DNA from: Vibrio sp. Isolate32
GTDB taxonomy: Bacteria > Pseudomonadota > Gammaproteobacteria > Enterobacterales > Vibrionaceae
DNA: 64,000 nt
Direction of reading: 5' to 3'
NCBI RefSeq assembly: GCF_022397955.1
Contig: NZ_JAKEUQ010000001.1
Coordinates: forward strand, 215,866 to 279,865
Made by a program: the position numbers and the translations under genes. Below are positions 58-15,268 of this stretch, in pieces. Within the stretch, counting starts at the first letter, position 1. The number at the start of each line of letters is the position of its first letter. The notes below the pieces were generated by a model. It was not told the DNA's origin. It saw only the letters and a program-made list of their open reading frames with translations, and ran no database searches.

Positions 58-116
58 GGCATTTATTATACTAAAATCATGCCATTTATGCTTGGTGGAT
101 AAGGCTTTATTATCGA

Positions 117-470: not shown

Positions 471-778
471 GATAACGCACCGATGAGTGCAGCAAGATAG
501 ACCGCTGGCGTGCCTTGAGGAATGCTCAGCTCCACATCATTGATGAGAAGTGTCATGTTAGCCGTGGCTATTTGAGCTTGATACTTCATCGTCTTTTCAA
601 CGACCTCTGCTCGCACAAAGCCTTGAGAGATATCCGCTTCCTTGAGTTGCTGGCGTTTGGCATAAAACGTGGAGGGGTTGAGTTCATTGAGCTTACAAAA
701 TGCTAGCGTTGACAATGAACGCGATTCAAATTGCTCGATAAGTGTTTGCCATTCTTGATTGGTGCGTCGTTTTGCCAT
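467..778 (-). CDS. tnpA: IS66 accessory protein TnpA (Orf1)
   Basis: About 103 residues with the IS66 Orf1 layout: an N-terminal helix-turn-helix-like segment (EWQTLIEQFESRSLSTLAFCK then NPSTFYAKRQQLK) and a C-terminal part ending in a leucine/alanine-rich tail. The ATG at 778 is preferred over the upstream one at 793 because a strong AGGAGA ribosome site lies about seven bases ahead of it. It is the first gene of the three-gene IS66 operon and overlaps tnpB. Confidence 0.85.
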   Translation of the reverse strand: MAKRRTNQEWQTLIEQFESRSLSTLAFCKLNELNPSTFYAKRQQLKEADISQGFVRAEVVEKTMKYQAQIATANMTLLINDVELSIPQGTPAVYLAALIGALS

Positions 779-859
779 TTCAAATCTCCTCATAGTTGGA
801 GACTTGATCTTAATTCTTCGTGCTAGGTGATTAGAATGCGGGGTTTATGACGCGCTAAC

Positions 860-1151
860 GAACGATACTCGTAACTGGAAAGAACAGTCTTCTCGAATCA
901 AAAAAGGCGTGGTAACAAAGTCTCTGGGATGGCCAACTCAAGAAATGGACGCCATGTTTGGCTTCAAAAAGCATATTGGTATTTTTCACCCCAAATCAGT
1001 AGAAGGGCACCCGACAAGTATTCCAACTGAATCAATTTTAGATTGGGCTAGAAGGGTTATTGAGAAGCTTAAGATAGACGCTCCCAACCACCTACGGCAG
1101 TGGGTGGTTATCATTAACTTCAGCTTTGCTGCCCTATTTAGTGATAATTAG
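860..1151 (+). pseudogene. 3' remnant of an unrecognised gene cut by IS66
   Basis: From codon 861 an open frame continues to a TAG at 1151 (NDTRNWKEQSSRIKKG, then a GTG at 909). The reading frame is open right up to the inferred IS66 end and has no ribosome site at the internal GTG, which is what a gene truncated by insertion looks like. The roughly 97 residues contain FGFKKHIGIFHP and a helical segment ILDWARRVIEKLK, but I do not recognise the family. Function unknown; the 5' half, if it survives, would lie beyond the far end of the IS. Confidence 0.5.
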
Positions 1152-1173
1152 GAGTAAGTTTTGGGTATGTAAA

Positions 1174-2640
1174 CTACATAGCAGCTTCCATAACTGCCTT
1201 CTTTGCTCCTTTCTGTTCAATATTGATGTATGCCTGAGTGATAGCATCAATTACAGATTGTTGCTGAACAATGGATTGATCGAAGATTGTTTCTTCACTC
1301 AAAAGTGCCTTAATCAATGACTCAATTGAGTCGTGTTTTTTGCAGATTGACAATAAATGATCAGAGAGAGGATCCACTACGTCTATTGGTTGATTGTTTT
1401 CATCAATACCATTGATGTAGCGCATCCATGCCGCAGTGACCAATGCTAAAGCGGTAAAATCATGCTTGTCTTTGGCCAAAATGCCCATCGATTCAATAAT
1501 ACGTTGTGGAAGCTTTTGGCTGCCATCCATAGCGATCTGATGGGTCTTATGTTTTAAATATGGATTTGAAAATCGATTTAAGAGCAGCTCGGAATACTCG
1601 ATGAGATTGATATTATCGAGCTCTTGTAGGGTTGGTTTTTGCTCATTGAGCATAAGCCGACGAGTCATTTCTTTGAAACTAGGATTTTCCATCGTATCTG
1701 AAATGTATTCATATCCGGATAAGTACCCTGTGTAAGCGAGAAAAGAGTGGCTACCATTGAGCATTCTAAGCTTCATTTCTTCATACGGCTGCACATCTTT
1801 TACGAGTGATACACCATCAATTAGCTGCCATTCAGGGCGGCCAGAGACAAAGCTATCTTCAATAACCCATTGTAAAAACGGTTCTGTGATCAGGCCACAA
1901 GGATCAAACTTACCGGTTAATGACTCGATAGTTTTCAATGATTCGTCGGTCATTGCGGGTACAATTCTATCGACCATTGTGCCAGGGAAGCTTGTATGGA
2001 TTGAAATCCATTCGGATAGATCCGGGTCTATCATGTTGGCGTAAGCAATAATGGCGGCTTTCGTTACTTCACCGTTATGGGGCATGTTGTCACATGACAT
2101 GATACTGAAGGCGGGTAGGTTTCGTTCTTTTCTCAAACTTAACGCAGCAACTATTACACCTAAAGCAGATTTTGGAGCTTTGGGATTAGCGATGTCTTGA
2201 GCGATTAACGGGTGCCCTGCATGAAGTTGGCGAGTGTTCGGGTCTACACAGTAGCCTTTTTCAGTAATCGTTAGTGAAACGATCGATACTTGGGGCTCAG
2301 CCATTCTTTCTGTAATAGAGTCAATCCCGTCTAGGTTAGGGTGCATACTATCTATCACTGATTCGATAGTGTGAATATTGGTAGTGGTATGATCTTGTTC
2401 AACGACAGTGTAACGATGGTCTTGCTCTCTCAACTCTTGAATAAAGGGCTTTCCACTAAACAAGCTTACGGTCGTATAGCCCCAATCACTAGGAGTTATC
2501 TGATTGAGTTTGTCTAATACCAAAGCTTGGTGAGCACGGAAAAATGCACCACAACCAATATGAACAATTCGGTTTTTAAGTGACGAGCGATCATAATTTG
2601 AATGTGGTGGCTGATCATATTCTGTTCGACTAGAAGCCAT
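1174..2640 (-). CDS. uxuB: Fructuronate reductase / mannonate oxidoreductase (mannitol dehydrogenase family)
   Basis: This 488-residue protein belongs to the long-chain mannitol dehydrogenase family. The N-terminal dinucleotide-binding motif HIGCGAFFRAHQA lies at about 27-39, followed by the family block ITEKGYCVDP near 125. The middle has SIMSCDNMPHNGE, and the catalytic-domain segment MKLRMLNGSHSFLAY lies near 290. The family reaction is reversible NAD(H)-dependent interconversion of D-fructuronate and D-mannonate. The ATG has a good AAGGATA site. It is the last gene of the gntR-dehydrogenase-uxuB operon, 122 bases after its neighbour. UxuB is favoured over mannitol or altronate dehydrogenase because uxuA, kdgK and eda are close by. 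Confidence 0.85.
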   Translation of the reverse strand: MASSRTEYDQPPHSNYDRSSLKNRIVHIGCGAFFRAHQALVLDKLNQITPSDWGYTTVSLFSGKPFIQELREQDHRYTVVEQDHTTTNIHTIESVIDSMHPNLDGIDSITERMAEPQVSIVSLTITEKGYCVDPNTRQLHAGHPLIAQDIANPKAPKSALGVIVAALSLRKERNLPAFSIMSCDNMPHNGEVTKAAIIAYANMIDPDLSEWISIHTSFPGTMVDRIVPAMTDESLKTIESLTGKFDPCGLITEPFLQWVIEDSFVSGRPEWQLIDGVSLVKDVQPYEEMKLRMLNGSHSFLAYTGYLSGYEYISDTMENPSFKEMTRRLMLNEQKPTLQELDNINLIEYSELLLNRFSNPYLKHKTHQIAMDGSQKLPQRIIESMGILAKDKHDFTALALVTAAWMRYINGIDENNQPIDVVDPLSDHLLSICKKHDSIESLIKALLSEETIFDQSIVQQQSVIDAITQAYINIEQKGAKKAVMEAAM

Positions 2641-2690
2641 ATAAATATCCTTAGATGTAATGCGAATTTGGGAGAGCGAATGAGCTATCG

Positions 2691-2717
2691 AAGTCTCCGA
2701 ATGAGTATTGGAGACTT
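2691..2717. other. Intercistronic hairpin between dehydrogenase gene and uxuB
   Basis: AAGTCTCC at 2691-2698 is perfectly repeated inverted as GGAGACTT at 2710-2717, with an 11-base spacer. It lies in the 122-base gap inside an apparently co-directional operon. No U-run follows on the minus strand, so an RNA-processing or stability element, or an operator, is more likely than a terminator. Confidence 0.5.
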
Positions 2718-2762
2718 AATATGTTGAATAAAAAGTATACGGATGATTGCCAGTACTAAGTG

Positions 2763-3779
2763 TTACTGCATTTTTATCAATGCTTTACGTACTTTTTGTG
2801 GGGCGTTCTCAATAAGTGCAATAGCATCAGGAGCGGTATCGAGAGTGAACTCATGACTGATTAAAAACTCGGTGTCGAGTTTTCCTTGAGCCATCCAGTT
2901 AATCACTTTCGGGAACATTTTGTTATTCAGACGAGAGCCTACAATGGTCAGCTCTTTCTTGATCACTTCGACTTGCTGAAGTGGGCTATCTTCACTAGAG
3001 AAGCCGAGCAAACATACAGTCCCCGCAGGAGCAGCTAACCTCATAATTTCAGGAATAAGAGCAGGAATACATGCTGCGTCAGCGATCAGTGGTACACCTT
3101 GCCCATTTGTCAGCTCCATGACTCGCTGCTCGGTGTTTTCTTGTTTAGGGTTAATGGTATGAGTTGCCCCTAATTGCTTGGCGGTTTCTAACTTTTCATC
3201 AAGAAGATCGACAATTATAGATGGAATACCTAAAACATTAGCAATTTGTACAATGGTTAATCCAATAACGCCTGCACCGTAGATCAATATTGTGTCATCC
3301 GAAGAAGCGTCTAATCGGTTAAACACATTAGCTGCGATACTGTAAGGTTCTATTAAGGTGGCATCTCTTAAGTTGATGTTGTCTGGTAGGGCAATGATAT
3401 TGGCTGCAGGCACGGCTTGAAATTGTGTGAATCCGCCATCGGTGTGAACACCTATCACTTGAAGTTCATTACACACATTCGATCGACCGATTTTGCAAGG
3501 TCGGCATTGGCCACAGCTGATCACAGGGTTCACGACCACTTTTGCTCCAACTTCCAGCCCAGTTAAGCTGTTTCCAATCTTTTCGATAGTTCCTACAAAC
3601 TCGTGCCCAGTGATTCTAGGGTAGGTAGCAAATGGGTTTTGGCCGTGAATGATATGCAGATCAGAGCCACAAATCCCGGCGTACTCTACACGAACTAATA
3701 CTTGGTCATCAGAGAAAGAGGGTACGTTTTGTTCGACGACTTGGTAGTCATTAATTCCATTAACAATAAATGATTTCAT
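2763..3779 (-). CDS. Zn-dependent dehydrogenase, RspB/L-gulonate 5-dehydrogenase-like
   Basis: This 338-residue medium-chain dehydrogenase/reductase resembles E. coli RspB over its whole length. Catalytic zinc ligands are visible in AGICGSDLH (Cys about 37) and GHEF (His-Glu about 59). The structural zinc cysteines form the CGQCRPCKIGRSNVC cluster at about 89-103. The NAD-binding loop YGAGVIGLTIVQ lies near 167. RspB relatives include enzymes acting on L-gulonate or L-galactonate at C5. Beside uxuB and uxuA, oxidation of L-gulonate to D-fructuronate is the most economical role, but this is inferred from context. The start lies two bases after the gntR stop, so the genes are probably translationally coupled. 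Confidence 0.75.
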   Translation of the reverse strand: MKSFIVNGINDYQVVEQNVPSFSDDQVLVRVEYAGICGSDLHIIHGQNPFATYPRITGHEFVGTIEKIGNSLTGLEVGAKVVVNPVISCGQCRPCKIGRSNVCNELQVIGVHTDGGFTQFQAVPAANIIALPDNINLRDATLIEPYSIAANVFNRLDASSDDTILIYGAGVIGLTIVQIANVLGIPSIIVDLLDEKLETAKQLGATHTINPKQENTEQRVMELTNGQGVPLIADAACIPALIPEIMRLAAPAGTVCLLGFSSEDSPLQQVEVIKKELTIVGSRLNNKMFPKVINWMAQGKLDTEFLISHEFTLDTAPDAIALIENAPQKVRKALIKMQ

Positions 3780-3781
3780 TT

Positions 3782-4474
3782 TTAGTTACTCAACTTATCT
3801 ATCACGTTATCGATGTGCTTGATCATTGCCGATTCAGCTTGTTCAGGCTCTCCGGACTTGATCGCGTTGAAGATCGCTTGATGATCGTCAATCCAAATTC
3901 CTTTTGCAGTCGGTTCGTTAGCAATGACTTCCATGCGATCCCACATTTTCCCTTTCATATGTATCGACATCAGATCTTGGTGGAAGATAGTTAATAGTGG
4001 GTTCTGGCAAGCACTAGCGATCGCACAGTGAAACTGTTGGTCAGCATCATGAGATGTTTTATGTCTTAACTCGATACTTGAGAAAAATTGAGACGCATTC
4101 ATCATGTCAAGGCATTGCTGAAGTTCGTTGATCAACTCAGGCGTATTGTTCAGCGCTGCTTGTTTCGCAAACTCACCTTCAATAATTTTTCTAGCCGATA
4201 AAATGTCGTTTGGCGTAAATTCACTCAGTGACGGAGAAGGCAGGTGAGGCTGACTTTGTAAGACGAAAACCCCAGCTCCTTTCTTGATTTCAGCAATGCC
4301 AGATAGCTCCAAATAGACCATCGCTTCACGTATGACGGTACGGCTCACATTGAGCTCTTCTGACAGCTTCCGTTCTGGTGGGATTTTGTCCCCTACGAGG
4401 TATTGCTTAGCATTAATTCGGTTAATGATCTGATTGGCGACGGTTATGTACAGCCTGTCATTTTTTATTGTCAT
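3782..4474 (-). CDS. GntR-family (FadR/FCD subfamily) transcriptional regulator
   Basis: 230 residues. An N-terminal winged helix spans about residues 8-75, with the characteristic GDKIPPERKLSEELNVSRTVIREAM segment. A C-terminal FCD helical ligand-binding domain follows at about 90-225. FCD regulators of the UxuR/ExuR type respond to uronate-pathway intermediates. It heads the minus-strand catabolic operon and faces the divergent TRAP operon, so it probably controls both. Matching FadR-like palindromes lie in the shared intergenic region. The exact effector cannot be read from sequence. Confidence 0.85.
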   Translation of the reverse strand: MTIKNDRLYITVANQIINRINAKQYLVGDKIPPERKLSEELNVSRTVIREAMVYLELSGIAEIKKGAGVFVLQSQPHLPSPSLSEFTPNDILSARKIIEGEFAKQAALNNTPELINELQQCLDMMNASQFFSSIELRHKTSHDADQQFHCAIASACQNPLLTIFHQDLMSIHMKGKMWDRMEVIANEPTAKGIWIDDHQAIFNAIKSGEPEQAESAMIKHIDNVIDKLSN

Positions 4475-4661
4475 GCCTCTACCTTGTTCATAATCGATCC
4501 TTTATGCCGCTAATGATTAGTTGTGCGCCCATCTCTTTTCTCAGTCTATTTAATGGTATTAACCGTGAAAGATGTTGGCTCACTCTGCAGCGTTGTTATG
4601 TATCAATTAAACCATCATTTATCTTAAAGTTATGTGACCAAAGGCATGTTAATACAATGAT

Positions 4662-4676
4662 ATTGTCCAGACCAAT
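4662..4676 (+). promoter_or_regulatory. Putative GntR operator, copy 1
   Basis: ATTGTCCAGACCAAT matches 14 of 15 bases of the reverse complement of the site at 5218-5232. The shared core (TTGGT-STG-WMCAA when read the other way) resembles FadR-subfamily operators with TGGT and ACCA half-sites. Its placement upstream of gntR suggests autoregulation. Confidence 0.6.
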
Positions 4677-4693
4677 TATTTTTATGTGGATTT

Positions 4694-4708
4694 TTTGGTG
4701 TGACCAAA
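4694..4708. promoter_or_regulatory. Putative GntR operator, copy 2 (best palindrome)
   Basis: TTTGGTGTGACCAAA is a perfect inverted repeat (TTTGGT, 3-base centre, ACCAAA). It fits the TGGT-N3-ACCA pattern known for FadR-type GntR proteins and lies 18 bases after copy 1, so the pair could be bound cooperatively. Confidence 0.6.
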
Positions 4709-5154
4709 TATATTTCTACACGGCGTTATATAGCTTCGACAATAGAGTAAATAAGCAGAGCTAAGCGGTGTGGTGTTATTTTTATAGATCGGAAATGGTA
4801 AAACAGGCACTAGGTCAATGATTTACAGGTTTTTAGTAAAAAATCATACTTTATCGTCTTGGAATATTGCACTTCGAATTTGGTTTAGGTTGTATTTTGG
4901 TTTTTAATTTAACCTGTTGTTTTTAATTAACTTTATTTTCATTTTTACTGGGTTGTAAAACTTGACCAAGTTAAATGTTCTTAAAGTGATGCGGAGTTCT
5001 CATCGTGGATTCAGCCCAAATCGAGAAAGGTAAAGCAAGTGTGACAAATAGAGTGATTCGCATAAAAATGACTATTCTTGATCGAGATGTGGTTTTTCTG
5101 GTTGCGAAAGATGAAACTTTGCACATAAAAATTCTATGCTAAGTAGGGTCTTTC

Positions 5155-5170
5155 TGTCACATTTATCACA
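5155..5170. promoter_or_regulatory. Putative CRP (cAMP receptor protein) site
   Basis: TGTCACATTTATCACA matches the TGTGA-N6-TCACA consensus at 9 of 10 defined positions. It is about 86 bases upstream of the dctP start, a workable position for activating a sugar-acid uptake operon under carbon limitation. Confidence 0.55.
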
Positions 5171-5217
5171 CTTAATGTTATTAATTATTGTAAAATGTTA
5201 ATTCAATGTTAGGTTGA

Positions 5218-5232
5218 ATTGGTCTGTACAAT
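5218..5232 (-). promoter_or_regulatory. Putative GntR operator, copy 3
   Basis: ATTGGTCTGTACAAT is the inverted counterpart of copy 1 with one mismatch. It ends about 23 bases before the dctP start, so bound repressor would sit over the promoter or transcription start of the TRAP operon. Confidence 0.6.
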
Positions 5233-5255
5233 AAAAGATAGAAATGGAGAACACG

Positions 5256-6221
5256 ATGAAGCAAAAACTATTGAACGTCGCTATATTAGCGTCTTCTCTT
5301 TTCACTGGAATTGCATCTGCTGCCGACTACACTTTGAAATTTGGCCATCTGGCAAACGATGACAATGTTTGGAACAAAGCTGCCCTACATTTCCAAAAAA
5401 CGGTGGAAGAAAAATCTGAAGGACGAATTGAAGTTTTGGTATATCCGAACTCTGAATTAGGATCTGAGATGGATATCATTAACGGCATCCAACTAGGCAC
5501 GGTCGACCTAACAATCTCGGGGGAATCATTGCAAAATTGGGCACCGAAAGCAGCACTGCTTGCAATCCCATATGCAATCCGTGATAGCGAGCACTTGGCG
5601 GCAGTTGCCAATGGTGAGATCGGTAAAGAGATTGAAGAACAAATCACTCAGCTTTCAGGCCTGGTGCCACTAACTTGGTTCGAACGTGGTTCGCGTAACC
5701 TAACTTCGAATAAACCAATCACAACGCCAGAAGACCTTAACGGTATGATTCTGCGTGTTCCAAATGTTCCAATTTTTGTAAAGGTGTGGGAGCAACTTGG
5801 TGCTAAACCGACTCCGATGGCGTTCTCGGAAGTGTTTACTTCTCTACAACAAGGCACGATCCATTCTCAAGAAAACCCGTTATCACTGATCAACAGCGCA
5901 TCCTTCTTTGAAGTTCAAGGTTATGTGAATAAAACAGAGCACGTACGCAGTTGGATTTACGTTGTTATGGGTAAGCGTCAATTAGAAAAACTACCTAAAG
6001 ACTTGCAAGCTGTGGTTAAAGAAGCCGCTGCCGAAATGCAGGCCTATGAACGAGAGTTATTCCTAGAAGATGAAAGAAAGCTTGGTGAGATATTGCAAGA
6101 AAGAGGGATGAAATTCGTTGATGTCGATCAAGAGGCATTCCGTGAAGCTGCGCTTCCGGCTGTTCGCAAAAGTTTGAATAAAGAGCAGTTAGCGCTGTTT
6201 GAAGATATCCAAAAACTATAA
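5256..6221 (+). CDS. dctP: TRAP transporter substrate-binding protein (DctP family)
   Basis: About 321 residues. A signal peptide of basic residues and a hydrophobic core ends at GIASA|ADY, so the protein is periplasmic. Mature motifs are FGHLAND, ENTMV-type spacing, the ligand-arginine segment MILRVPNVPIF near 155, and GTIHSQENPLSLI near 205, both typical of DctP proteins that bind carboxylates. The ATG at 5256 is preferred over 5244 because GGAG lies seven bases before it. It starts the dctPQM operon. The neighbouring enzymes suggest an aldonate or hexuronate ligand; sequence alone does not define which. Confidence 0.9.
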   Translation: MKQKLLNVAILASSLFTGIASAADYTLKFGHLANDDNVWNKAALHFQKTVEEKSEGRIEVLVYPNSELGSEMDIINGIQLGTVDLTISGESLQNWAPKAALLAIPYAIRDSEHLAAVANGEIGKEIEEQITQLSGLVPLTWFERGSRNLTSNKPITTPEDLNGMILRVPNVPIFVKVWEQLGAKPTPMAFSEVFTSLQQGTIHSQENPLSLINSASFFEVQGYVNKTEHVRSWIYVVMGKRQLEKLPKDLQAVVKEAAAEMQAYERELFLEDERKLGEILQERGMKFVDVDQEAFREAALPAVRKSLNKEQLALFEDIQKL

Positions 6222-6231
6222 GTAACCCTTG

Positions 6232-6249
6232 GGGAGGTGGATACCTCCC
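6232..6249 (+). other. Hairpin between dctP and dctQ
   Basis: GGGAGGT at 6232-6238 and ACCTCCC at 6243-6249 form a perfect 7-bp stem with a GGAT loop just after the dctP stop. Only a few T residues follow. It probably protects or partly terminates the dctP message so that the binding protein is made in excess over the membrane subunits. Confidence 0.6.
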
Positions 6250-6270
6250 TATTTTCTCATGAGGGAAATT

Positions 6271-6807
6271 ATGACGACAATTGTAAATGTGGCCGAAGAA
6301 CAAAAAGAGTCACTCGTTTCGAGAGCCGTAAATCACATTGATCGACTTGCCACTCGCTTTTTTAGTTTTTTTACAATTTGTAGCTTAGTTGCTTTATGTG
6401 GTGTGGTTTTACTACAGGTATTTGCGCGAATGTTTTTAGAAAGTACTCCTGCTTGGACAGAAGAACTTTCTCGCTACTTCTTTATCTATACCGTTGCTTT
6501 TGGCTCTGGATTAGCGTTCAAGTCAAAAGAACTAGTGAGTGTCGATATTATAGTTTCTAGACTAAATGAAAAATGGCAAAGCATATATCAACTAATTGTT
6601 AATATCGTTATTTCTATTTTTATCTTTATTGCTTTGCCAAATGCATTTAAATTTATGAATATCGGTGAATGGCAAACATCACCAGTACTTGCAGTTCAAA
6701 TGGACTACATCTTTTTTGCAAGTGTTCTTATCTTTGCAAACCTACAACTATTTATAGCTTTAGATTCTATAAAAATAATTATTAAACACACAAGTCGAAG
6801 AGGATGA
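6271..6807 (+). CDS. dctQ: TRAP transporter small permease (DctQ family)
   Basis: About 178 residues with four hydrophobic membrane segments (roughly 30-50, 65-85, 103-122 and 142-160). The TPAWTEELSRYFFIYTVAFGSG motif marks DctQ small subunits. It pairs with DctM in the inner membrane to make the sodium-driven translocator. The ATG at 6271, preceded by GAGGG, is preferred over the longer in-frame start at 6229, which overlaps the hairpin. One base separates its stop from dctM. Confidence 0.88.
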   Translation: MTTIVNVAEEQKESLVSRAVNHIDRLATRFFSFFTICSLVALCGVVLLQVFARMFLESTPAWTEELSRYFFIYTVAFGSGLAFKSKELVSVDIIVSRLNEKWQSIYQLIVNIVISIFIFIALPNAFKFMNIGEWQTSPVLAVQMDYIFFASVLIFANLQLFIALDSIKIIIKHTSRRG

Positions 6808-6808
6808 T

Positions 6809-8083
6809 ATGGAAGTCTATATATTATTTTCGGTTTTCTTTATTTTATTAACATTAGGCTTTCCTATTGCAATTACGCTTGGAATAGCATCAATGGCTTA
6901 CTTATTGATGGCCGATATTTCATTAACCGTGATTCCACAAAAAATGTTTGCGGGCATTGATTCATTTGTACTCCTTTGTATCGGTGGTTTCATCCTTGCC
7001 GGAAACTTAATGAATCGGGGAAACATCACCGAACAGATCATCGGGCTAAGTAACGCGATGCTGGGGCATATTCGCGGTGGGCTTGGGCTAGCGAATGTTA
7101 GTGGTTCAATGTTGTTTGGTGGCGTTTCGGGTACTGCGGTTGCTGATACAGCATCGATTGGTTCGGTCATGATCCCAGGGATGGCAAAAAGTGGTTACGA
7201 CAAACCATTTGCAGCCGCGGTGACGGCTGCCTCATCAACCATCGGGCCAATTATTCCTCCTAGCGTACCTATGATCATTGTCGGTACGTTGACCAGTATC
7301 TCGGTTGGAAAACTGTTTCTAGCTGGTGCTGTACCGGGGTTATTGTTGGGTGTGGGGATGATGGCAACGACTTATTTTCTATCGGTAAAACGAGGTTATC
7401 CGAAAGAAAAACGTGCAACTCTATCGGAAATTATTCTTCACTTGAGAACAAGCTGTTGGGCGATTTCACTGACATTTCTAATACTGATTGGCATTGTAGG
7501 TGGCTTCTTTACACCGACGGAAGCCTCTGTCGTCGCAGCGCTTTATGCAATGATTATCGGTATATTTGTTTATAAAGGACTTTCGTTTAGAGATCTTCCC
7601 AAAATACTACTTTCGACTGCGGTTACCACAGCATCACTAATGCTGCTTGTAGGTTTAGCGAATGTTTTTGGATGGATACTAACGTCAGAAAAAATCCCAC
7701 AAATGATAGCATCTGCGATATTAACGGTCAGTGAAAATCCAATCATTGTATTGCTAATCATCAACTTATTGTTGCTGTTGGTAGGCTCGTTCATGGAGAC
7801 CATTGCGGCACTGATCATACTATTTCCTACATTATTAGGCGTAGCGACTGCTGTGGGTGTTGACCCAGTGCACTTTGGTATTATCGCTGTGCTTAACTTG
7901 ATGATTGGTCTAACTACACCACCTGTTGGAGTTTGTTTGTTCGTTGCTGCGGGCATTGGCGGAATTCCGATGGAGAAAGTCGTAAAAGCAATCGTGCCTT
8001 TCCTATTGTGTAATTTAGCCGTGTTATTGATGGTCACATATATACCAGCTGTATCACTTTGGCTACCAAGCGTGTTCTTATAA
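6809..8083 (+). CDS. dctM: TRAP transporter large permease (DctM family)
   Basis: This 424-residue polytopic protein of about 12 membrane segments has DctM hallmarks: GGFILAGNLMNRGNI near 70, SGSMLFGGVSGTAVADTASIGS near 98, ASSTIGPIIPPSVPMII near 140, and a second inverted-repeat counterpart LTTPPVGVCLFVAAGIGGIP near 370. It forms the ion-coupled transport channel with DctQ, delivering ligand from DctP. Full length and intact. Translation is probably coupled to dctQ. Confidence 0.92.
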   Translation: MEVYILFSVFFILLTLGFPIAITLGIASMAYLLMADISLTVIPQKMFAGIDSFVLLCIGGFILAGNLMNRGNITEQIIGLSNAMLGHIRGGLGLANVSGSMLFGGVSGTAVADTASIGSVMIPGMAKSGYDKPFAAAVTAASSTIGPIIPPSVPMIIVGTLTSISVGKLFLAGAVPGLLLGVGMMATTYFLSVKRGYPKEKRATLSEIILHLRTSCWAISLTFLILIGIVGGFFTPTEASVVAALYAMIIGIFVYKGLSFRDLPKILLSTAVTTASLMLLVGLANVFGWILTSEKIPQMIASAILTVSENPIIVLLIINLLLLLVGSFMETIAALIILFPTLLGVATAVGVDPVHFGIIAVLNLMIGLTTPPVGVCLFVAAGIGGIPMEKVVKAIVPFLLCNLAVLLMVTYIPAVSLWLPSVFL

Positions 8084-8101
8084 AAAACTAGAGTTGATGC
8101 A

Positions 8102-9238
8102 ATGTTAGATGGTCGATACCCAGATTATTCTCGAATGAGAAAAAAAACAGAAGCGAATATCCCCAAGTTTATATATGAATATTTAGAGGGAGGATGTTTT
8201 GATAATATTGGATTGGAGACAAACCGTTTAGCATTGCAGAAATCTAGGTTAGCACCAAGGTATTTAGCGCCGTATTCAAAGTGCGATTTAAAAACTACAA
8301 TTCTTGGGAAAGAATATAGCGCTCCATTCGGCATTGCACCAATCGGTTTACAAGGCCTAATTTGGCCTAATTCACCGGTTATTTTGGCGAAAGCAGCAAA
8401 GAAGTACAATATTCCATATGTTCTAAGCACCGTTTCATCTGAGTCGATAGAAGTAATCGCAGAGTTAGCAGAAGACAATGCATGGTTTCAACTCTACAAC
8501 CCAGTGGATGAAGCAATACAAGATTCAATATTGGGACGTTTGAAGAGCTGCGGCTATAAAAACTTGGTGGTCACGGTTGACATTCCGACGTTTGGGTTTA
8601 GGCCCAATGACATCGCGAATGGATTAACTATGCCTCCTAAGCACTCTGTTAAGAACTTCATCGATGTATGCAAAACGCCGCAGTGGGCTACTCAAACTCT
8701 CAAGTATGGAATTCCAAAATTTAAAAACTTGGAACCATACATGAGAGAGCATCATCTGGATTTACCAGAAATGATGCGCTCGATGGCGATGGGGAAAGTG
8801 GACACGGTAGGCTTGAAAAGAATAAGGGACAAGTGGGAAGGGAATTTAATAGTAAAAGGTGTTTGTTCTAGCGGCGATCTCAAGTTACTTGAAGAGGTGA
8901 ATGCCGACGGGGTTATTTTATCTAACCATGGAGCTCGGCAGTTAGATGCTTGTGAATCCCCAATAGATCTTCTAAGAAAAATAGGTGGAGATTCAGTGCC
9001 CGCAGATATGGCGATGATGATGGATAGCGGTATTCGATCGGGAGTGGATATTGCCATTTCCTTAGCATCCGGGGCTCAATTTACATTTTTGGGTCGCTTT
9101 TTCATGTACGCCGTGTCGTCATTGGGTAAGGAAGGTGGAGAGCATGCAATTGAAGTGCTAATGCAGCAACTGACTCAAGTAATGGAACAAATTAGGTGTG
9201 AGAAACCCGCTGATTTGTCAGGGTTCCTCGCAAACTAG
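8102..9238 (+). CDS. FMN-dependent alpha-hydroxy-acid dehydrogenase (LldD/lactate oxidase family)
   Basis: This 378-residue TIM-barrel flavoprotein keeps the family's active-site pattern. The N-terminal Tyr is in FIYEYLEGG (about 22), with WFQLYNP (Gln about 130) and VTVDIPTFGFRPND with Thr and Arg. The FMN lysine is in IVKGV, the catalytic His-Arg pair in SNHGARQLD (about 277), and the phosphate-binding segments are MDSGIRSGVD and FLGRFFMYA. Family members oxidise L-lactate, glycolate, mandelate or similar 2-hydroxy acids. No membrane anchor is obvious. It lies 18 bases after dctM, so it is part of the TRAP operon. Its substrate is unclear; a sugar-acid or 2-hydroxy acid imported by the transporter is plausible. 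Confidence 0.85.
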   Translation: MLDGRYPDYSRMRKKTEANIPKFIYEYLEGGCFDNIGLETNRLALQKSRLAPRYLAPYSKCDLKTTILGKEYSAPFGIAPIGLQGLIWPNSPVILAKAAKKYNIPYVLSTVSSESIEVIAELAEDNAWFQLYNPVDEAIQDSILGRLKSCGYKNLVVTVDIPTFGFRPNDIANGLTMPPKHSVKNFIDVCKTPQWATQTLKYGIPKFKNLEPYMREHHLDLPEMMRSMAMGKVDTVGLKRIRDKWEGNLIVKGVCSSGDLKLLEEVNADGVILSNHGARQLDACESPIDLLRKIGGDSVPADMAMMMDSGIRSGVDIAISLASGAQFTFLGRFFMYAVSSLGKEGGEHAIEVLMQQLTQVMEQIRCEKPADLSGFLAN

Positions 9239-9451
9239 ATATAAATAAAAGCTTATTTAATTTTGGAAAATAGTTGCTCATTATCGAATAACTAGGCTGG
9301 TCCGTTTCTACAATAAAAATATTTGTTGGATGGATATATGAATTATGTCTATAGGGTTGGATCGATATTATCTCAATTAATGTTGCATTAAGACTCTAAA
9401 CTCTCATTCGTCCGATTTATTGAATAAGTAAAAACTTTTTGGGAGATAAAT
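9239..9451. other. Gap before uxuA, possible internal promoter
   Basis: 213 AT-rich bases between the flavoprotein gene and uxuA. A partial operator-like half-site TGGTCCGT at 9299-9306 is visible, but the other half is poor. No terminator with a U-run is evident, so read-through from the TRAP operon plus an internal promoter is possible. Confidence 0.3.
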
Positions 9452-10525
9452 ATGAAGATGTCATTTCGTTGGTATGGCGAAGGGAATGATGAGGTAAGTT
9501 TACCTTTTATTAAACAGATTCCTGGTGTTGAAGGCATTGTTTGGTCATTGCATGATATACCTGCTGGAGAAGTTTGGAGTGAAGAACGTATTCTCGCTGA
9601 AAAAGAAATAATAGAGAAAGCAGGTTTTCATATTGATGTCGTTGAAAGTGTTAATGTTCATGAAGACATTAAACTCGGTCTGCCATCAAGAGATAAGTAT
9701 ATTGATAACTATATTGAAACCTTAAAAAGACTGGCTAAAGTCGGGGTGAAAGTTGTCTGCTACAATTTTATGCCAGTATTCGATTGGACCAGAACCGAGC
9801 TGTATAAAGAAATGGAAGACGGTTCTAACGCTCTGTTTTTCGAAAAGAGTAAAATCAGTGACATTGAGCCTATTGAGCTTATCGAAAAATTATCAAAGAA
9901 CGTATCTGTAACAATGCCAGGGTGGGAACCAGAACGACTATCCCAATTAAAAGAAACGTTTGAGAAATACAAAGGTTTTACAGCGGAAGACCTTTGGGGA
10001 AACCTCCAGTATTTCTTAAAAAAAGTTATCCCCGTTTGTGAAGAATTCGATATTAAAATGGGGGTTCACCCAGATGACCCTGCATTTCCTATCTTTGGGT
10101 TACCTAGAATTATTATTAATAAAGAGAATATTCTAAGGCTTTTAAACTTGGTCGACAGCCCATATAACGGCTTAAGTTTATGTACCGGATCACTTGGTTC
10201 GAGCAATAACGATATTCCAGATATCATTGACGAAGTTCATGAACGAATTCATTTTATACATATACGTAATGTAAAAAGATTTGAGAATGGTGACTTTATA
10301 GAATCTTCTCATCGAGCGTGTGATGGATCCGTCGATACGATCAAAGTAATACAAACACTTCATAAGCACGATTATCAAGGTTATGTACGACCAGATCATG
10401 GTCGCCATATTTGGGGTGAAGAGAAATGGGCTCGTCCTGGTTATGGTTTATATGACCGAGCTCTTGGGATTATGTACATCCTTGGTGCATGGGATAACTT
10501 GCAGGCGCAGCAAGCTGGTAAGTAA
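9452..10525 (+). CDS. uxuA: Mannonate dehydratase
   Basis: 357 residues. It catalyses dehydration of D-mannonate to 2-keto-3-deoxy-D-gluconate (KDG). Family signatures are the opening MSFRWYGEGND, GVEGIVWSLHDIPAGEVW at about 24-41, MGVHPDDPAFPIFGLPRI near 205, the metal-ligand Cys in LSLCTGSLGS near 245, His in HFIHIRN near 270, and Asp/His in VRPDHGRHIWGE near 320. A clear GGGAGA site precedes the ATG. The length matches the shorter UxuA group rather than the roughly 394-residue E. coli protein. It feeds kdgK and eda downstream. Confidence 0.93.
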   Translation: MKMSFRWYGEGNDEVSLPFIKQIPGVEGIVWSLHDIPAGEVWSEERILAEKEIIEKAGFHIDVVESVNVHEDIKLGLPSRDKYIDNYIETLKRLAKVGVKVVCYNFMPVFDWTRTELYKEMEDGSNALFFEKSKISDIEPIELIEKLSKNVSVTMPGWEPERLSQLKETFEKYKGFTAEDLWGNLQYFLKKVIPVCEEFDIKMGVHPDDPAFPIFGLPRIIINKENILRLLNLVDSPYNGLSLCTGSLGSSNNDIPDIIDEVHERIHFIHIRNVKRFENGDFIESSHRACDGSVDTIKVIQTLHKHDYQGYVRPDHGRHIWGEEKWARPGYGLYDRALGIMYILGAWDNLQAQQAGK

Positions 10526-10571
10526 ATCGCGAGTTCGATAGACGAATAAGTCGTGTGCTAATAGTAAGATT

Positions 10572-10598
10572 CAGCCCGATTAAGCGATATTCGGGCTG
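10572..10598 (+). terminator. Possible terminator or attenuator after uxuA
   Basis: CAGCCCGA (10572-10579) and TCGGGCTG (10591-10598) form an 8-bp GC-rich stem with an 11-base loop. Only TTCT follows, so termination would be weak and kdgK may still receive read-through. Confidence 0.45.
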
Positions 10599-10659
10599 TT
10601 CTACAGCAAGTACATACTATTGTTGACCATTTAATTTCCCAGCGCTGCTGAGGCTAAAG

Positions 10660-11580
10660 ATGAAAAAAAAAATAGCCATTATTGGCGAATGCATGGTTGA
10701 GCTACAGCATAAAAATGGGGCGCTGCAGCAGTCATTCGGCGGAGACACACTAAATACAGCACTTTATTTCTCTCGCCTGTGCAAAGCTCAGGATATCGAA
10801 ACCTCCTATGTGACGGCATTGGGTGAAGACCCTTATAGTCGAGCAATGCTAGACGCTTGGAAAGAGGAGGGGATTGATACTTCTCTAATTCATCAAATTC
10901 CAGGCAAACAACCGGGAATCTATCACATTGAAACCGATTCAACTGGTGAGCGCAGCTTTTATTATTGGCGTAATGAAGCTTCTGCAAAGTTCATGTTTGA
11001 CCAAGATAACGCGCATGAATTACTAGCTAAATTGAAGCAATTTGATGTGATTTACCTTAGTGGTATTACGCTTGCAATTTTGACTGATACTAGCCGAGGC
11101 ATGCTATTTGAACTATTGGATAGTTTTTCTGGTCAAGTTTTCTTCGATAACAACTTTCGCCCCAAGTTATGGCAAGACCGTAATGAAGCGCAGAAAGTAT
11201 ATTTAAAAATGCTGTCATACACCGACACTGCCTTGCTGACCTTCGATGATGAAGAAGCGTTATATGGTGATGAGGACGTTGAGCAATGTATTGCACGTAC
11301 AAAAGACGCTGGTGTCTCTGAAGTTATCGTTAAACGAGGCAGTAAGGATTGTCTTGTTTATGACGGTGAAACTCGTGCTTCAGTTGCCGCGAATCAGGTC
11401 AAAAACGTCGTGGATACGACAGCTGCCGGTGATTCATTTAGTGCCGGTTTTCTCGCTAAACGTCTTAGTGGTGGTAGCGGAACACAATCAGCAGAAGCAG
11501 GGCACATTGTAGCCAGTACCGTCATTCAACATAAAGGCGCGATCATCCCAAGAGATGCAATGCCAGATTTGTATTTATAA
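10660..11580 (+). CDS. kdgK: 2-keto-3-deoxygluconate kinase
   Basis: 306 residues of the PfkB sugar-kinase family. The first signature is GECMVELQ plus SFGGDTLNTALYFSRL at about 9-35, a substrate-binding region with the two-glycine motif. The second signature DTTAAGDSFSAGFLAKRL near 250 carries the catalytic Asp and the anion hole. The enzyme phosphorylates KDG to KDPG with ATP in the cytoplasm. Between uxuA and eda, the KDG assignment is strong compared with fructokinase alternatives. The stop lies 25 bases before the eda start. Confidence 0.9.
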   Translation: MKKKIAIIGECMVELQHKNGALQQSFGGDTLNTALYFSRLCKAQDIETSYVTALGEDPYSRAMLDAWKEEGIDTSLIHQIPGKQPGIYHIETDSTGERSFYYWRNEASAKFMFDQDNAHELLAKLKQFDVIYLSGITLAILTDTSRGMLFELLDSFSGQVFFDNNFRPKLWQDRNEAQKVYLKMLSYTDTALLTFDDEEALYGDEDVEQCIARTKDAGVSEVIVKRGSKDCLVYDGETRASVAANQVKNVVDTTAAGDSFSAGFLAKRLSGGSGTQSAEAGHIVASTVIQHKGAIIPRDAMPDLYL

Positions 11581-11605
11581 CCCGTTCAACGAAGAGAGAG
11601 TCCTA

Positions 11606-12232
11606 ATGACTACGTTAAATGAACACTTAGCAAACCTAAAAGTTATTCCCGTTATTGCAATAAATAACGTTGAAGATGCAATTCCACTAGGCCATGCACT
11701 GCTTGAAAATGGTATGCCTTGTGCTGAAATCACTCTGCGCACCGAATGCGCTATTGAAGCGATTCGTTTAATGCGTAAAGAGTTCCCTGATATGTTAATT
11801 GGTTCCGGCACTGTACTAACTAATGAGCAGGTAGATGCCTCTATCGAAGCGGGCGTAGATTTCATCGTTAGCCCAGGTTTCAACCCTCGCACCGTACAAT
11901 ATTGTATCGATAAAGGTGTCGTAATTGTTCCTGGTGTCAACAACCCAAGCCTTGTTGAGAAAGCCATGGAGATGGGGCTAAGTACATTGAAATTCTTCCC
12001 AGCAGAAGCCTCTGGCGGTGTAGGCATGCTAAAGGCGCTTACTGCTGTTTACCCTGTTAACTTTATGCCAACTGGTGGTGTGAGCCCGAAGAATGTGGAT
12101 GAGTACTTATCTATACCGTCAGTATTAGCATGTGGCGGCACTTGGATGGTTCCGACAAAACTTATGGATGAAGGAAAATGGGATGAACTAGGTGCTTTAG
12201 TTCGAGATGCTGTTACACATGTAAGTGCTTAG
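11606..12232 (+). CDS. eda: KDPG/KHG aldolase
   Basis: About 208 residues of the class I KDPG aldolase family. Motifs in order are VIPVIAINNVEDAIPLG near 12, the catalytic Glu and Arg in CAEITLRT near 40, SGTV near 70, FIVSPGFNP near 90, the Schiff-base Lys in LKFFPAEASGG near 130, and MPTGGV near 158. It splits KDPG into pyruvate and glyceraldehyde-3-phosphate, the last step of the island's pathway. The ATG at 11606 with a GAGAGAG site is preferred over an upstream in-frame ATG inside kdgK. Confidence 0.92.
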   Translation: MTTLNEHLANLKVIPVIAINNVEDAIPLGHALLENGMPCAEITLRTECAIEAIRLMRKEFPDMLIGSGTVLTNEQVDASIEAGVDFIVSPGFNPRTVQYCIDKGVVIVPGVNNPSLVEKAMEMGLSTLKFFPAEASGGVGMLKALTAVYPVNFMPTGGVSPKNVDEYLSIPSVLACGGTWMVPTKLMDEGKWDELGALVRDAVTHVSA

Positions 12233-12710
12233 TATTTAAATTTCATACTTTATTGTTACTTTAGACCTTGTTTACGACGTAATAATAAGGCCTGAACGAG
12301 GGATATGTTTCAATCATTAATGTTCCACCGACAAACATGTGTGAGTAGAATAAAGTTTGTTACCAAGTAATTGTAGTGGACGAGAAAATTTGGCCACTCG
12401 ATTAGAAGATTTGGCCTTAAATCTGATAATTCACGATAAGCTAAATTAGCAAAGCCGCTAACTCAGAAATGTCCAAAAATGAGTTTCAAATGTTTGTAAC
12501 TGTGTGTTTGTAACTGGCAAACGATAAATGAATCCTTTTATCAGGCTTCATCTTAACTACCCCAATTTATGTGAGATCGCATCAACTATCAGATATAGAG
12601 TGGCTAAATGGGCAATGAAATTATCGCCACTTCATCGCCACTTTGACCGTACTGGCTTTGTAAGGTGTTATTTTATATTGTTTTTAATTTGTTGGCGATA
12701 TAAAAGTTAA
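12233..12710. other. Gene-free stretch between eda and IS66, possible IS remnant
   Basis: 478 AT-rich bases. A 60-codon frame at 12528-12710 runs into the IS66 end and shows no family resemblance or ribosome site. Several GGCCACT or CGCCACTT words recur (around 12389-12398 and 12633-12654), resembling the end of a decayed insertion element, but I cannot assign one. No strong terminator for eda is visible. Confidence 0.35.
12703..12710 (+). repeat. IS66 target-site duplication, left copy
   Basis: AAAGTTAA, identical to 15091-15098. Eight bases is the usual IS66 duplication length. Confidence 0.95.
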
Positions 12711-12726
12711 GTAAGCGTCTAATTAA
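12711..12726 (+). repeat. IS66 left inverted repeat
   Basis: GTAAGCGTCTAATTAA, an exact inverted match to the right end at 15075-15090; the next base differs. Confidence 0.95.
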
Positions 12727-12785
12727 CCACATATTCTAATTTCAGCAAGCCTTTGTCATAGTTTCGCCAGCCTAATGGAGGAACT

Positions 12786-13085
12786 ATGACACAATCAGAA
12801 AAGCACCAACATTGGACGGCCATTGTTTTCAAGCAACAAGAAAGCGGCCTTTCTATTCCACATTTTTGTAAAGAGCACGACATCAACTACGCCACTTTTC
12901 ACTACTGGCTGAAAAAGCTCAAGCAAACCGACGATGAACAAGTAGCTCACCAAGTGGTCATGAATGATCACCCATCTTTCAGTGGGGAAATGGTTGTCGT
13001 CCACTTGCCTAACGGACTCCGAGCCGAGTTGCCAACGTCACTTTCATTGGTTCAGATTCAAACATGGCTTAAGGCGCTGCAATGA
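12786..13085 (+). CDS. tnpA: IS66 accessory protein TnpA (Orf1)
   Basis: 99 residues. The N-terminal half is a helix-turn-helix-like segment (HWTAIVFKQQESGLSIPHFCKEHDINYATFHYWLKKLK), followed by a beta-rich tail (GEMVVVHLPNGLRAELP). This is the IS66 Orf1 architecture. A GGAGGA ribosome site at 12777-12782 precedes the ATG. The stop overlaps the tnpB start (ATGA), so the pair is translationally coupled. It is diverged from the TnpA at 467-778. Confidence 0.92.
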   Translation: MTQSEKHQHWTAIVFKQQESGLSIPHFCKEHDINYATFHYWLKKLKQTDDEQVAHQVVMNDHPSFSGEMVVVHLPNGLRAELPTSLSLVQIQTWLKALQ

Positions 13086-13426
13086 TCCCAAGTGGCGCTG
13101 TCTATCTTGTCTCAGGTATTACCGACATGAGAAAGTCGATTGATGGCCTCTCTCTCGTTGTGGCCGATGTGCTAGAAATGGATCCATTGAGTAGCGCATG
13201 GTTCATCTTCTGCAACCGAGGACGAGATAAAATCAAAATCTTGTTCTGGGATACCAATGGTTTTTGGCTCTATTATCGCCGCTTAGAAAAAGGCCGCTTC
13301 AAGTGGCCAAGGCCTACGGCGTCTGGTCATATCCACATCTCTACCCAACAACTCAACTGGCTGCTCTCTGGGTTAAAACTTGAAAATCCGCAAGCACATC
13401 AGCCTCTCTATGGGCGAGAAGTGTGA
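13082..13426 (+). CDS. tnpB: IS66 accessory protein TnpB (Orf2)
   Basis: 114 residues with the defining IS66 Orf2 blocks GITDMRKSIDGLSLVV near 12, FIFCNRGRDKIKILFWDTNGFWLYYRRLEKGRFKWP at about 41-76, and the LNWLLSGLKL end near 93. It is required for transposition in the family but has no known catalytic activity. It overlaps tnpA by four bases and is followed after 85 bases by tnpC. Confidence 0.95.
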   Translation: MIPSGAVYLVSGITDMRKSIDGLSLVVADVLEMDPLSSAWFIFCNRGRDKIKILFWDTNGFWLYYRRLEKGRFKWPRPTASGHIHISTQQLNWLLSGLKLENPQAHQPLYGREV

Positions 13427-13511
13427 GCTAGAATGTTGATCATCATACTGGGCTTGAATGATCTTTTTTCGCTGTCAGACTAGGTGAAAATATTGAATTA
13501 AGAGCCCTCAC

Positions 13512-15002
13512 ATGACCGAACTTCCTGATGATGTTGAACAACTCAAAGCGATGCTGCTCAAACTTCAGGAGGAAAACCAATCTAAAGATAATGCGATAGC
13601 GACATTAGAGAAAACCGTTCAAACTCAAGCAGAAGAAGTCGTTGAGCTAGAAAACAAAATGCAGTTACTCATCGAACAGCTTAATCTCAGTAAATCTAAG
13701 CGCTTCTCTGCCAAAAGTGAAAAAGAACCCAAAGGTACCTTCAATGAAGCTGAGCAACAAAATGCCTTGCCTAAACCTGCACCGAAGCATCATAAGAAAG
13801 GCCGAAAACCTCTGCCTCAAGAGCTAGAGCGAGAAGTGCTACAACACACACTCAATGCACCTTACTGCGACTGTTGCAATGAACCATTACATGAGTGCGG
13901 AACCGACGTCTCGGAAGAGCTAAAAATCATCCCTCAAAAGGTCAGCGTTATACGCCATAAGCGCACCAAATACGCTTGCCGACACTGCGAAAACACACAA
14001 ACCAGCAGTAAAATCATTACCGCCCCTAAGCCTGCTAATATGATCCCAAAAAGCATGGGCAGCCCTGAAGCGTTCGCCGCGGTTGTTACCGCAAAATATG
14101 TGGATGCACTGCCGCTTTACCGTCAGGTCGAAATTTTAAAGCGTTCTGATATCGAGCTAAGCCGAGGTACACTGGCGAACTGGTGCGTTCAACTGGGCAA
14201 CAAAGTGAATGTCATCATTGAAGCGATGAAAGCCCACTTACTGAATGAAAAGCTCATCTGCGCCGATGAAACCACCGTTCAAGTGCTGCGAGAAAAAGAT
14301 AGAACAGCACAAAGCAAATCTTACATGTGGGTCTATCGCAGTGGTGAGTTCGTTAAACAGCCAGTAGTAATTTACGACTATCAGCCAAGCCGCGCTGGGC
14401 AATGCGTTAAAGATTTTTTAGGTGGTTACTCGGGCTACTTGCTCACCGATGGTTATCAAGCCTACAGCGGTTTAAACAATGTTATCCAAGCTGGTTGTTT
14501 AGCTCACGCCCGACGTAAGTTTACTGATGCGCAAAAAGCACAACCAAAGAAGAAGTCAGGCCGTATTGAAAAGGTCATCAACTTCATCGCCAAGCTATAT
14601 GTTGTCGAGCAAGAAGCCAAGAGGTTAAATACTGTTGAAAGGCAGCAACTACGCCAACAAAAATCGAAACCAATCTTAGATAAGTTCCATCAGTGGTTGC
14701 TTGAAAGCCAAGAAAAAGTGCTGCCCAAAAGTCAGCTCGGCGGAGCCATTAATTACACCGTCAACCAATGGCCTAAGCTGCTCACTTATCTCGAAGATGG
14801 TGATATCAGCATAGATAATAATGTGACTGAGCGAGATATCCGCCCGTTTACTACGGGTCGTAAAAACTGGATGTTCTCCACGTCTGTTGAAGGTGCCACT
14901 GCGAGTGCTAACTTATATAGCTTAGTAATGACGTGTCGAGCGAATAACATCAACCCATATTACTACTTCGCGCACTTGTTCAAAGTGCTTCCAACGCGTT
15001 AG
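13512..15002 (+). CDS. tnpC: IS66 transposase TnpC (DDE)
   Basis: This 496-residue protein has an N-terminal coiled-coil with leucine-zipper character (about 5-55) and a helix-turn-helix/zinc-ribbon region with CDCCNEPL and CRHC cysteines near 115 and 155. A DDE catalytic core follows: ADETTVQVL (first Asp near 252), LLTDGYQAY (second Asp near 316), and NNVTERDIRPFTTGRKNW (Glu near 441). A C-terminal segment ends NPYYYFAHLF. Full length and undamaged, it should be functional. It catalyses strand transfer at the inverted repeats. Confidence 0.97.
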   Translation: MTELPDDVEQLKAMLLKLQEENQSKDNAIATLEKTVQTQAEEVVELENKMQLLIEQLNLSKSKRFSAKSEKEPKGTFNEAEQQNALPKPAPKHHKKGRKPLPQELEREVLQHTLNAPYCDCCNEPLHECGTDVSEELKIIPQKVSVIRHKRTKYACRHCENTQTSSKIITAPKPANMIPKSMGSPEAFAAVVTAKYVDALPLYRQVEILKRSDIELSRGTLANWCVQLGNKVNVIIEAMKAHLLNEKLICADETTVQVLREKDRTAQSKSYMWVYRSGEFVKQPVVIYDYQPSRAGQCVKDFLGGYSGYLLTDGYQAYSGLNNVIQAGCLAHARRKFTDAQKAQPKKKSGRIEKVINFIAKLYVVEQEAKRLNTVERQQLRQQKSKPILDKFHQWLLESQEKVLPKSQLGGAINYTVNQWPKLLTYLEDGDISIDNNVTERDIRPFTTGRKNWMFSTSVEGATASANLYSLVMTCRANNINPYYYFAHLFKVLPTR

Positions 15003-15074
15003 CCTCAAGATGATCTTACCGATCTTATGCCATGGAACTTTGACATCAATGAGACCGAGTAAGGCCTCACTGCT

Positions 15075-15090
15075 TAATTAGACGCTTACA
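15075..15090 (-). repeat. IS66 right inverted repeat
   Basis: TTAATTAGACGCTTAC, inverted match to 12711-12726. Confidence 0.95.
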
Positions 15091-15098
15091 AAGTTAAT
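15091..15098 (+). repeat. IS66 target-site duplication, right copy
   Basis: AAAGTTAA, identical to 12703-12710. Confidence 0.95.
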
Positions 15099-15170
15099 TA
15101 CTTTTATTTATTTTGATACCTCTTGCAAACCCTTATGATTGCTTGTTTATCAAGGGCTTGTTGATTTATT

Positions 15171-15200
15171 AAGCATGGTTAATCGTATTTAACCATGCTT
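15171..15200. other. 12-bp stem hairpin downstream of ptrB
   Basis: AAGCATGGTTAA (15171-15182) and TTAACCATGCTT (15189-15200) pair perfectly across a 6-base loop. No U-run follows on either strand. It may be a barrier to RNA decay or a leftover of the sequence into which IS66 inserted. Confidence 0.5.
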
Positions 15201-15209
15201 GATAATGTA

Positions 15210-15240
15210 TGTCGCCATTTGTAGAGATAAAATGGCGACA
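15210..15240 (-). terminator. Probable ptrB terminator-like hairpin
   Basis: TGTCGCCATTT (15210-15220) and AAATGGCGACA (15230-15240) form an 11-bp stem with a 9-base loop, about 29 bases past the ptrB stop. On the minus strand the stem is followed by ATACATT, so the U-run is poor. Confidence 0.5.
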
Positions 15241-15268
15241 TTAAATGACGTGGATACTTGTTTTGAAT

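Follow-up and report, generated by a model that had tools for sequence, protein, structure and literature searches.

A gene for an FMN-dependent (S)-2-hydroxy-acid dehydrogenase (the FMN gene) stands between dctM and uxuA in an L-gulonate-type operon of Vibrio sp. Isolate32, where it is a lineage-specific but stable addition whose link to the operon is not accidental. The window analysed is the whole stretch of 64,000 nucleotides (contig NZ_JAKEUQ010000001.1, positions 215,866 to 279,865), and the features of the operon region are collected in Table 1. The enzyme class, the intact active site, the place in the operon, its conservation and its restriction to one lineage are established. From this context, it is quite possible, and our tentative reading, that the substrate is a (2S)-aldonate of the pathway.

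Table 1. Predicted features of the operon region, with positions in the window.
Feature	Position	Strand	Basis
UxuB-like fructuronate reductase	1174..2640	-	best NCBIfam match PRK15037, 538 bits (cut-off 603)
Zn-dependent dehydrogenase, GulD/RspB-like	2763..3779	-	PRK10083, 371 bits (cut-off 376); best solved relative RspB 4ilk
GntR/FCD-family regulator, ExuR/UxuR-like	3782..4474	-	GntR and FCD domains
Candidate operator before gntR	4661..4677	-	one mismatch to the site before dctP
Candidate operator before dctP	5217..5233	+	17-base AATTGGTCTGTACAATA-type site
DctP, TRAP solute-binding protein	5244..6221	+	TIGR00787 above cut-off; nearest solved protein 4pc9/4pcd
DctQ, TRAP small permease	6229..6807	+	weak YiaM match under cut-off, position between dctP and dctM; TTG start is a mechanical assignment
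DctM, TRAP large permease	6809..8083	+	TIGR00786 above cut-off
FMN-dependent (S)-2-hydroxy-acid dehydrogenase (FMN gene)	8102..9238	+	PF01070, 348 bits; best solved relative 6bfg
UxuA mannonate dehydratase, short form	9452..10525	+	TIGR00695 and PF03786 above cut-off
KdgK 2-dehydro-3-deoxygluconokinase	10660..11580	+	NF052444 above cut-off
Eda/KdgA aldolase	11555..12232	+	TIGR01182 and PRK05718 above cut-off; the actual start codon may be an internal one

The FMN gene is an intact open reading frame of 378 amino acids with an ATG start, separated from the end of dctM at 8083 by 18 bases, as the original prediction had stated. Its product matches PF01070 (FMN_dh) with 348 bits against a gathering score of 24.9 (E 6e-104), which is far beyond chance. 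It is a PF01070 enzyme, predicted from its sequence to bind FMN and to oxidise (S)-2-hydroxy acids. This match, together with the gene set around it, bears out the earlier description of an FMN-dependent 2-hydroxy-acid dehydrogenase within a TRAP sugar-acid operon, which is here a complete aldonate operon. Eleven residues (Y27, S109, Q130, Y132, D160, R167, K252, H276, R279, D308 and R332) are identical in 97 of 97 relatives, a comparison that excludes LldD and the Shewanella protein L052 described below, and the active-site residues are thus kept, as had been claimed. We take their catalytic and FMN-binding roles to be those of the corresponding residues in glycolate oxidase, and on this assignment the catalytic set (Y27, Y132, D160, R167, K252, H276, R279) is complete in the predicted product.

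The original prediction had also pointed to an SNHG-A-R variant as a small departure from the consensus. The residue was read correctly (A278), but it is no departure, since the solved L-lactate oxidase 7f22 has SNHGARQL in the alignment and alanine occupies the same position in 6 of the 97 relatives. The SNHGAR motif is therefore no anomaly, and it was ruled out as a sign of novelty.

By both phmmer and fold, the top solved relative of the FMN gene product is the (S)-mandelate dehydrogenase 6bfg, a monotopic membrane form. The predicted model (mean pLDDT 89) has its best fold match there, with a TM score of 0.91. In the profile search, the fused double chains of the L-lactate oxidase structures 7f22 and 7f20 outrank 6bfg on summed pieces. 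Residues from about 178 to 215 align with the membrane-loop segment of native MdlB (6bfg), a segment which sits between the two barrel halves in the membrane-bound LldD/MdlB type and is present in the FMN gene product. This alignment and the best fit to 6bfg make a membrane, quinone-linked dehydrogenase more likely than a soluble oxidase, with quinone as the presumed acceptor.

The remaining genes describe a well-known route. In Haemophilus influenzae, a proven pathway converts L-gulonate to D-fructuronate (GulD), then to D-mannonate (UxuB) and to 2-keto-3-deoxygluconate (UxuA), and a kinase and an aldolase follow UxuA to give pyruvate and glyceraldehyde 3-phosphate, not lactate (PMC5788505). 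The binding protein of that pathway is described there as taking L-gulonate and D-mannonate (PMC5788505). No known step of the L-gulonate route requires an FMN enzyme. The earlier remark that the pathway has no obvious need for the FMN gene is consistent with this, as the H. influenzae route has no FMN step (PMC5788505).

In the Vibrio operon, UxuA, KdgK, Eda, DctP and DctM pass their curated cut-offs. The UxuB-like (538 of 603 bits) and GulD-like (371 of 376 bits) proteins fall just under theirs, and their names therefore rest on best match and context. The zinc-dependent dehydrogenase is probably an L-gulonate 5-dehydrogenase, a substrate suggested by its neighbours. The best NCBIfam matches of the GntR/FCD regulator are ExuR and the uxu regulator, both far under cut-off. 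The uronate isomerase UxaC is absent from the genome in a PF02614 search, which was positive in 7 of 14 control genomes, and was likewise not found in G949, G1007 and G072, genomes that also carry the FMN-bearing operon. It is present in all three genomes of the same genus that have the operon without the FMN gene (G979, G942, G952). The lack of UxaC in the window's genome, G949, G1007 and G072 means that import of an aldonate, rather than of a uronate, fits these operons. A hexuronate (glucuronate) operon was considered and rejected, as there is no UxaC in the genome. G936, in which the FMN-bearing operon is present, has UxaC in two overlapping pieces with one stop (C39; L227, L229), which could reflect disruption of the gene or a fault in the assembly.

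The operon was searched for through DctP at three levels, with the own genome counted in each: 7 of 196 genomes matched in the genus (E 1e-110), 3 of 150 in the family (E 1e-100) and 13 of 396 in the phylum (E 1e-90). Together these searches gave 22 loci with a related binding protein, and the FMN gene is found in five of them, namely the window, G949, G1007 and G936 of the same genus, and G072 (Photobacterium). In all five of these tight-clade operons its place is between dctM and uxuA, and the identity is 85-96%. The other 17 loci, at each of which 14-19 kb was examined, lack it; three belong to the same genus, 13 (from 12 genomes) to other families and one, in G013, to another Vibrionaceae genus. 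Within the genus, a search with UxuA (E 1e-140) matched 20 of 192 genomes. Four of these are the FMN-bearing ones, and the UxuA of the other 16 is 74-86% identical. None of these 16 loci has the FMN gene; 15 have a different TRAP system, and in one no TRAP system was seen. Relatives of the FMN gene itself occur in 25 of 150 genomes of the family (E 1e-60), where besides the window only G072 exceeds 51% identity. At E 1e-105, three of the 369 genomes drawn from the class have one, as do three of the 398 drawn from the phylum, again counting the own genome. Its absence from the 17 wider loci marks the FMN gene as a lineage-specific addition, rather than a standard component of operons of this type.

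At four loci of the same family without the FMN gene (L154, L155, L156, L200), the mannonate dehydratase next to gntR is ManD, which is above cut-off in three and partial in G013. Two unrelated mannonate dehydratases are thereby swapped within one family, UxuA in the FMN-bearing operons and ManD in these. The G013 operon (L200, G013:C7:24000-43000), whose DctM is 88% identical to that of the window, is decaying, with gulD and gntR in pieces and manD partial.

The transporter could in principle explain the extra gene, if the TRAP system imports a further hydroxy acid and DctP takes more than L-gulonate and D-mannonate. DctP is indeed nearest to the Roseobacter protein 4pc9/4pcd (55-56% identical) and 4pbq, the gulonate-binding protein of H. 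influenzae, is more distant (29% by structural alignment). The Roseobacter structures were reportedly solved with D-mannonate and L-galactonate. We nevertheless regard such a further import as unlikely, as the FMN gene is missing from the 16 loci whose DctP is 55-68% identical to that of the window and also from G013, where DctP is 79% identical, and the remaining operon genes fit one linear aldonate route.

The dN/dS of the FMN gene is 0.12 against G949, 0.12 against G1007 and 0.03 against G936, and against G072 the synonymous sites are saturated (pS 0.74) with pN at 0.08; the other operon genes range from 0.01 to 0.16. These values indicate that the gene is under purifying selection. A 17-base site, AATTGGTCTGTACAATA, and a copy with a single mismatch lie before dctP and gntR, flanking the divergent promoters, and are conserved in the five operons. 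This site is likely a GntR operator. It occurs twice in the window against 0.15 expected, and no third site with at most one mismatch was found in the genome. A wider regulon that might have revealed a partner pathway was rejected: the genome holds 11 sites in all, equal to the 11 of a reversed-pattern control, and nine of these carry three mismatches, only the two local ones having one or none. Between the FMN gene and uxuA the intergenic sequence shows poor conservation, and crude scans called no promoter-like or terminator-like site on its coding strand. The simplest reading is a single predicted transcript from dctP to eda.

The original prediction had proposed a neighbourhood survey and had held that absence of the gene from related uxuA-TRAP loci, together with high activity on L-lactate alone, would indicate an accidental neighbourhood. 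The gene is indeed absent from the 17 wider TRAP loci, so that the original interpretation is borne out only in part; the link is nevertheless not accidental, since the gene is kept in all five close operons and is under purifying selection. A passenger gene, inserted between dctM and uxuA and retained for some cause that has nothing to do with the pathway, would agree with the low count (5 of the 22 loci with a related DctP) and with the IS66 genes that flank the operon. Such a passenger is nonetheless quite improbable, as the FMN gene holds the same place in two genera at distances where neutral sites are close to saturated, remains under purifying selection and, as far as the candidate sites show, has the regulation of the operon in common.

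The IS66 genes comprise a TnpB-like gene at window positions 117-470 on the left and TnpB with a transposase at 13082-15002 on the right. A repeat search of window positions 1-15300 (seed 11, minimum length 25) found no direct repeats and a single inverted pair of 27 bases at 74%, which does not lie between the two IS66 copies. Since no shared long repeat links them, the two copies look like separate insertions, and a composite transposon carrying the operon was rejected.

The nearest named relatives of the FMN gene product point to its origin. The 80 best named relatives, out of at least 585 confirmed, are 47-53% identical to it. Fifty of these 80 stand near sugar catabolism genes, 19 of them near L-fucose and 31 near L-rhamnose genes, counts based on clusters that were annotated for part of their members. 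In the annotated representative loci, FucP, L-fucose dehydrogenase and a bifunctional rhamnulose-1-phosphate aldolase/dehydrogenase are above cut-off; fuconolactonase, an FAA-type hydrolase and rhamnose isomerase are best matches under cut-off. The remaining 30 of the best 80 have neither gene set, and eight of these have a fucosidase, an MFS transporter or an enolase-type gene in their vicinity. The L-fucose route can end in L-lactate. The L-rhamnose route can also do so, and lldD is reported in RhaR regulons of other phyla (PMC3870299). The FMN dehydrogenases of these loci are, from their context, probably L-lactate dehydrogenases, and the ancestor of the FMN gene was likely one too.

The FMN gene product may have remained a dehydrogenase of L-lactate or of another small L-2-hydroxy acid (glycolate, L-glycerate or 2-hydroxybutyrate), a plausible but doubtful reading. 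It would then be expressed with the operon and burn an acid which arrives with the natural substrate or is formed as a by-product, and we regard this role as equally doubtful. The 50 relatives in loci whose end product is L-lactate speak for it, as do the pocket residues that they have in common with the FMN gene product. In G936 and G072, no LldD-like gene other than the FMN gene was found at E 1e-30, so that a plain lactate role is possible there. Against this, the window's genome, G949 and G1007 carry a separate, true LldD, and the operon route gives pyruvate and glyceraldehyde 3-phosphate, not lactate (PMC5788505).

The divergence of the operon clade also counts against this role. In a tree of 99 sequences, left from 104 after removal of identical rows and of sequences with a stop or shorter than 350 amino acids, it sits on a long stem (support 100/100, length 1.14). 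Among the columns conserved in 90% of the remaining sequences, 13 carry a change fixed in this clade, where the eight control clades have 0-4 such changes. Only LldD was left out of this comparison, and the controls are imperfectly matched, the operon clade being 47-50% identical to all others and the most similar control, Salinivibrio, 47-51% to most others and 64% to one. Against a shift in function, every residue that the clade has at the tabulated catalytic and pocket positions also occurs among the relatives from L-lactate-yielding loci. I81, T158 and A278 are minority residues, present in 17, 17 and 6 of the 97 relatives. The changes cluster at residues 224-235 (6 of 31, p 0.02), a post hoc result, as the 12-residue segment was picked with the data in view and 31 of 33 positions were used, two end positions being dropped. 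In helix 221-228 and at the adjoining residue 229, the clade carries M224, R226, M228 and A229, for which the majority of relatives have F, D, T and F. A lone FMN dehydrogenase of Shewanella (L052, 10001-11122) groups with the operon clade at 100/94, a placement which is flagged as a long-branch join and is possibly long-branch attraction. Its neighbours belong to the TldD, DarP, RPE65-like (carotenoid-oxygenase-like) and peptidase U32 families and are uninformative on function.

Our preferred reading is that the FMN gene product acts on an aldonate. It would be a membrane-associated (S)-2-hydroxy-acid:quinone dehydrogenase, the membrane location and quinone coupling being suggested by the loop described above, and would share a common ancestor with the dehydrogenases found alongside the L-fucose and L-rhamnose genes, whose pathways end in L-lactate. 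The gene would have been recruited into the Vibrionaceae form of the L-gulonate operon and would be expressed jointly with dctPQM and uxuA-kdgK-eda under control of the GntR regulator, if the candidate operators are read correctly. Its substrate would be an aldonate handled by the operon, either L-gulonate or D-mannonate or a relative imported with them. Oxidation of the (2S)-hydroxyl would give a 2-keto-aldonate, and the electrons would pass via FMN to the quinone pool. Oxidation at C2 would be a side branch of the main route, which starts by oxidation at C5.

L-Gulonate, D-mannonate and L-galactonate all have a 2S hydroxyl, which is the stereochemistry oxidised by the FMN alpha-hydroxy-acid dehydrogenase family, so the C2 oxidation of an imported aldonate suggested in the original prediction is chemically possible. 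No member of the family is known to us to act on a sugar acid, and the operon shows no recognisable gene for processing a 2-keto-aldonate, which counts against the aldonate reading, as does the lack of the FMN gene at 17 of the 22 loci. In its most specific form, an FMN-dependent, quinone-linked aldonate 2-dehydrogenase would convert L-gulonate or D-mannonate to 2-keto-L-gulonate or 2-keto-D-gluconate, as a respiration-linked branch beside the NAD-linked C5 route; this we put forward with some doubt, as one possibility.

Since every other step of the pathway is known, the conserved extra gene poses a clean and testable question, namely what a relative of lactate dehydrogenase does in a cell living on L-gulonate or D-mannonate. 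A true aldonate enzyme would widen the substrate range of a well-studied family and offer a one-enzyme route to 2-keto-aldonates such as 2-keto-L-gulonate, which is the industrial precursor of vitamin C. If it is instead an L-lactate enzyme, the operon has retained a gene that has no evident connection with its pathway. No report of an FMN aldonate dehydrogenase, or of the FMN gene in such an operon, was found in the titles and opening abstract text of the open-licence literature. Both the enzyme family and the operon type are known, and the pairing is a small, stable variant not met in that part of the literature.

Among known systems, LldD (NF033901, PRK11197) has its family, catalytic residues and membrane-type loop in common with the FMN gene product, which scores only 199 bits against a cut-off of 550 with NF033901 and 232 against 376 with PRK11197. 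The separate LldD of the same genome (paralogue P0002) is above both cut-offs, with 724 and 706 bits respectively, and is 33% identical to the FMN gene product. The identification of the FMN gene as LldD itself was rejected, as it is under both curated cut-offs. MdlB is 34% identical and has an alanine in the pocket where V111 stands here; its context also differs, with no aromatic pathway near the FMN gene. The FMN dehydrogenases of the L-fucose and L-rhamnose loci (PF01070; Bacteroidota and Gammaproteobacteria) have the same pocket residues and stand in a different operon from that of the window's clade. The L-gulonate genes of H. influenzae (GulPQM, GulD, UxuB, UxuA, KdgK, KdgA) form, on the assignments of Table 1, the same gene set as found here (PMC5788505). 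Transporter, two dehydrogenases (in the Vibrio operon named by best match and context), dehydratase, kinase, aldolase and a GntR-type regulator are shared between the two, and the FMN dehydrogenase is the addition of the Vibrio operon.
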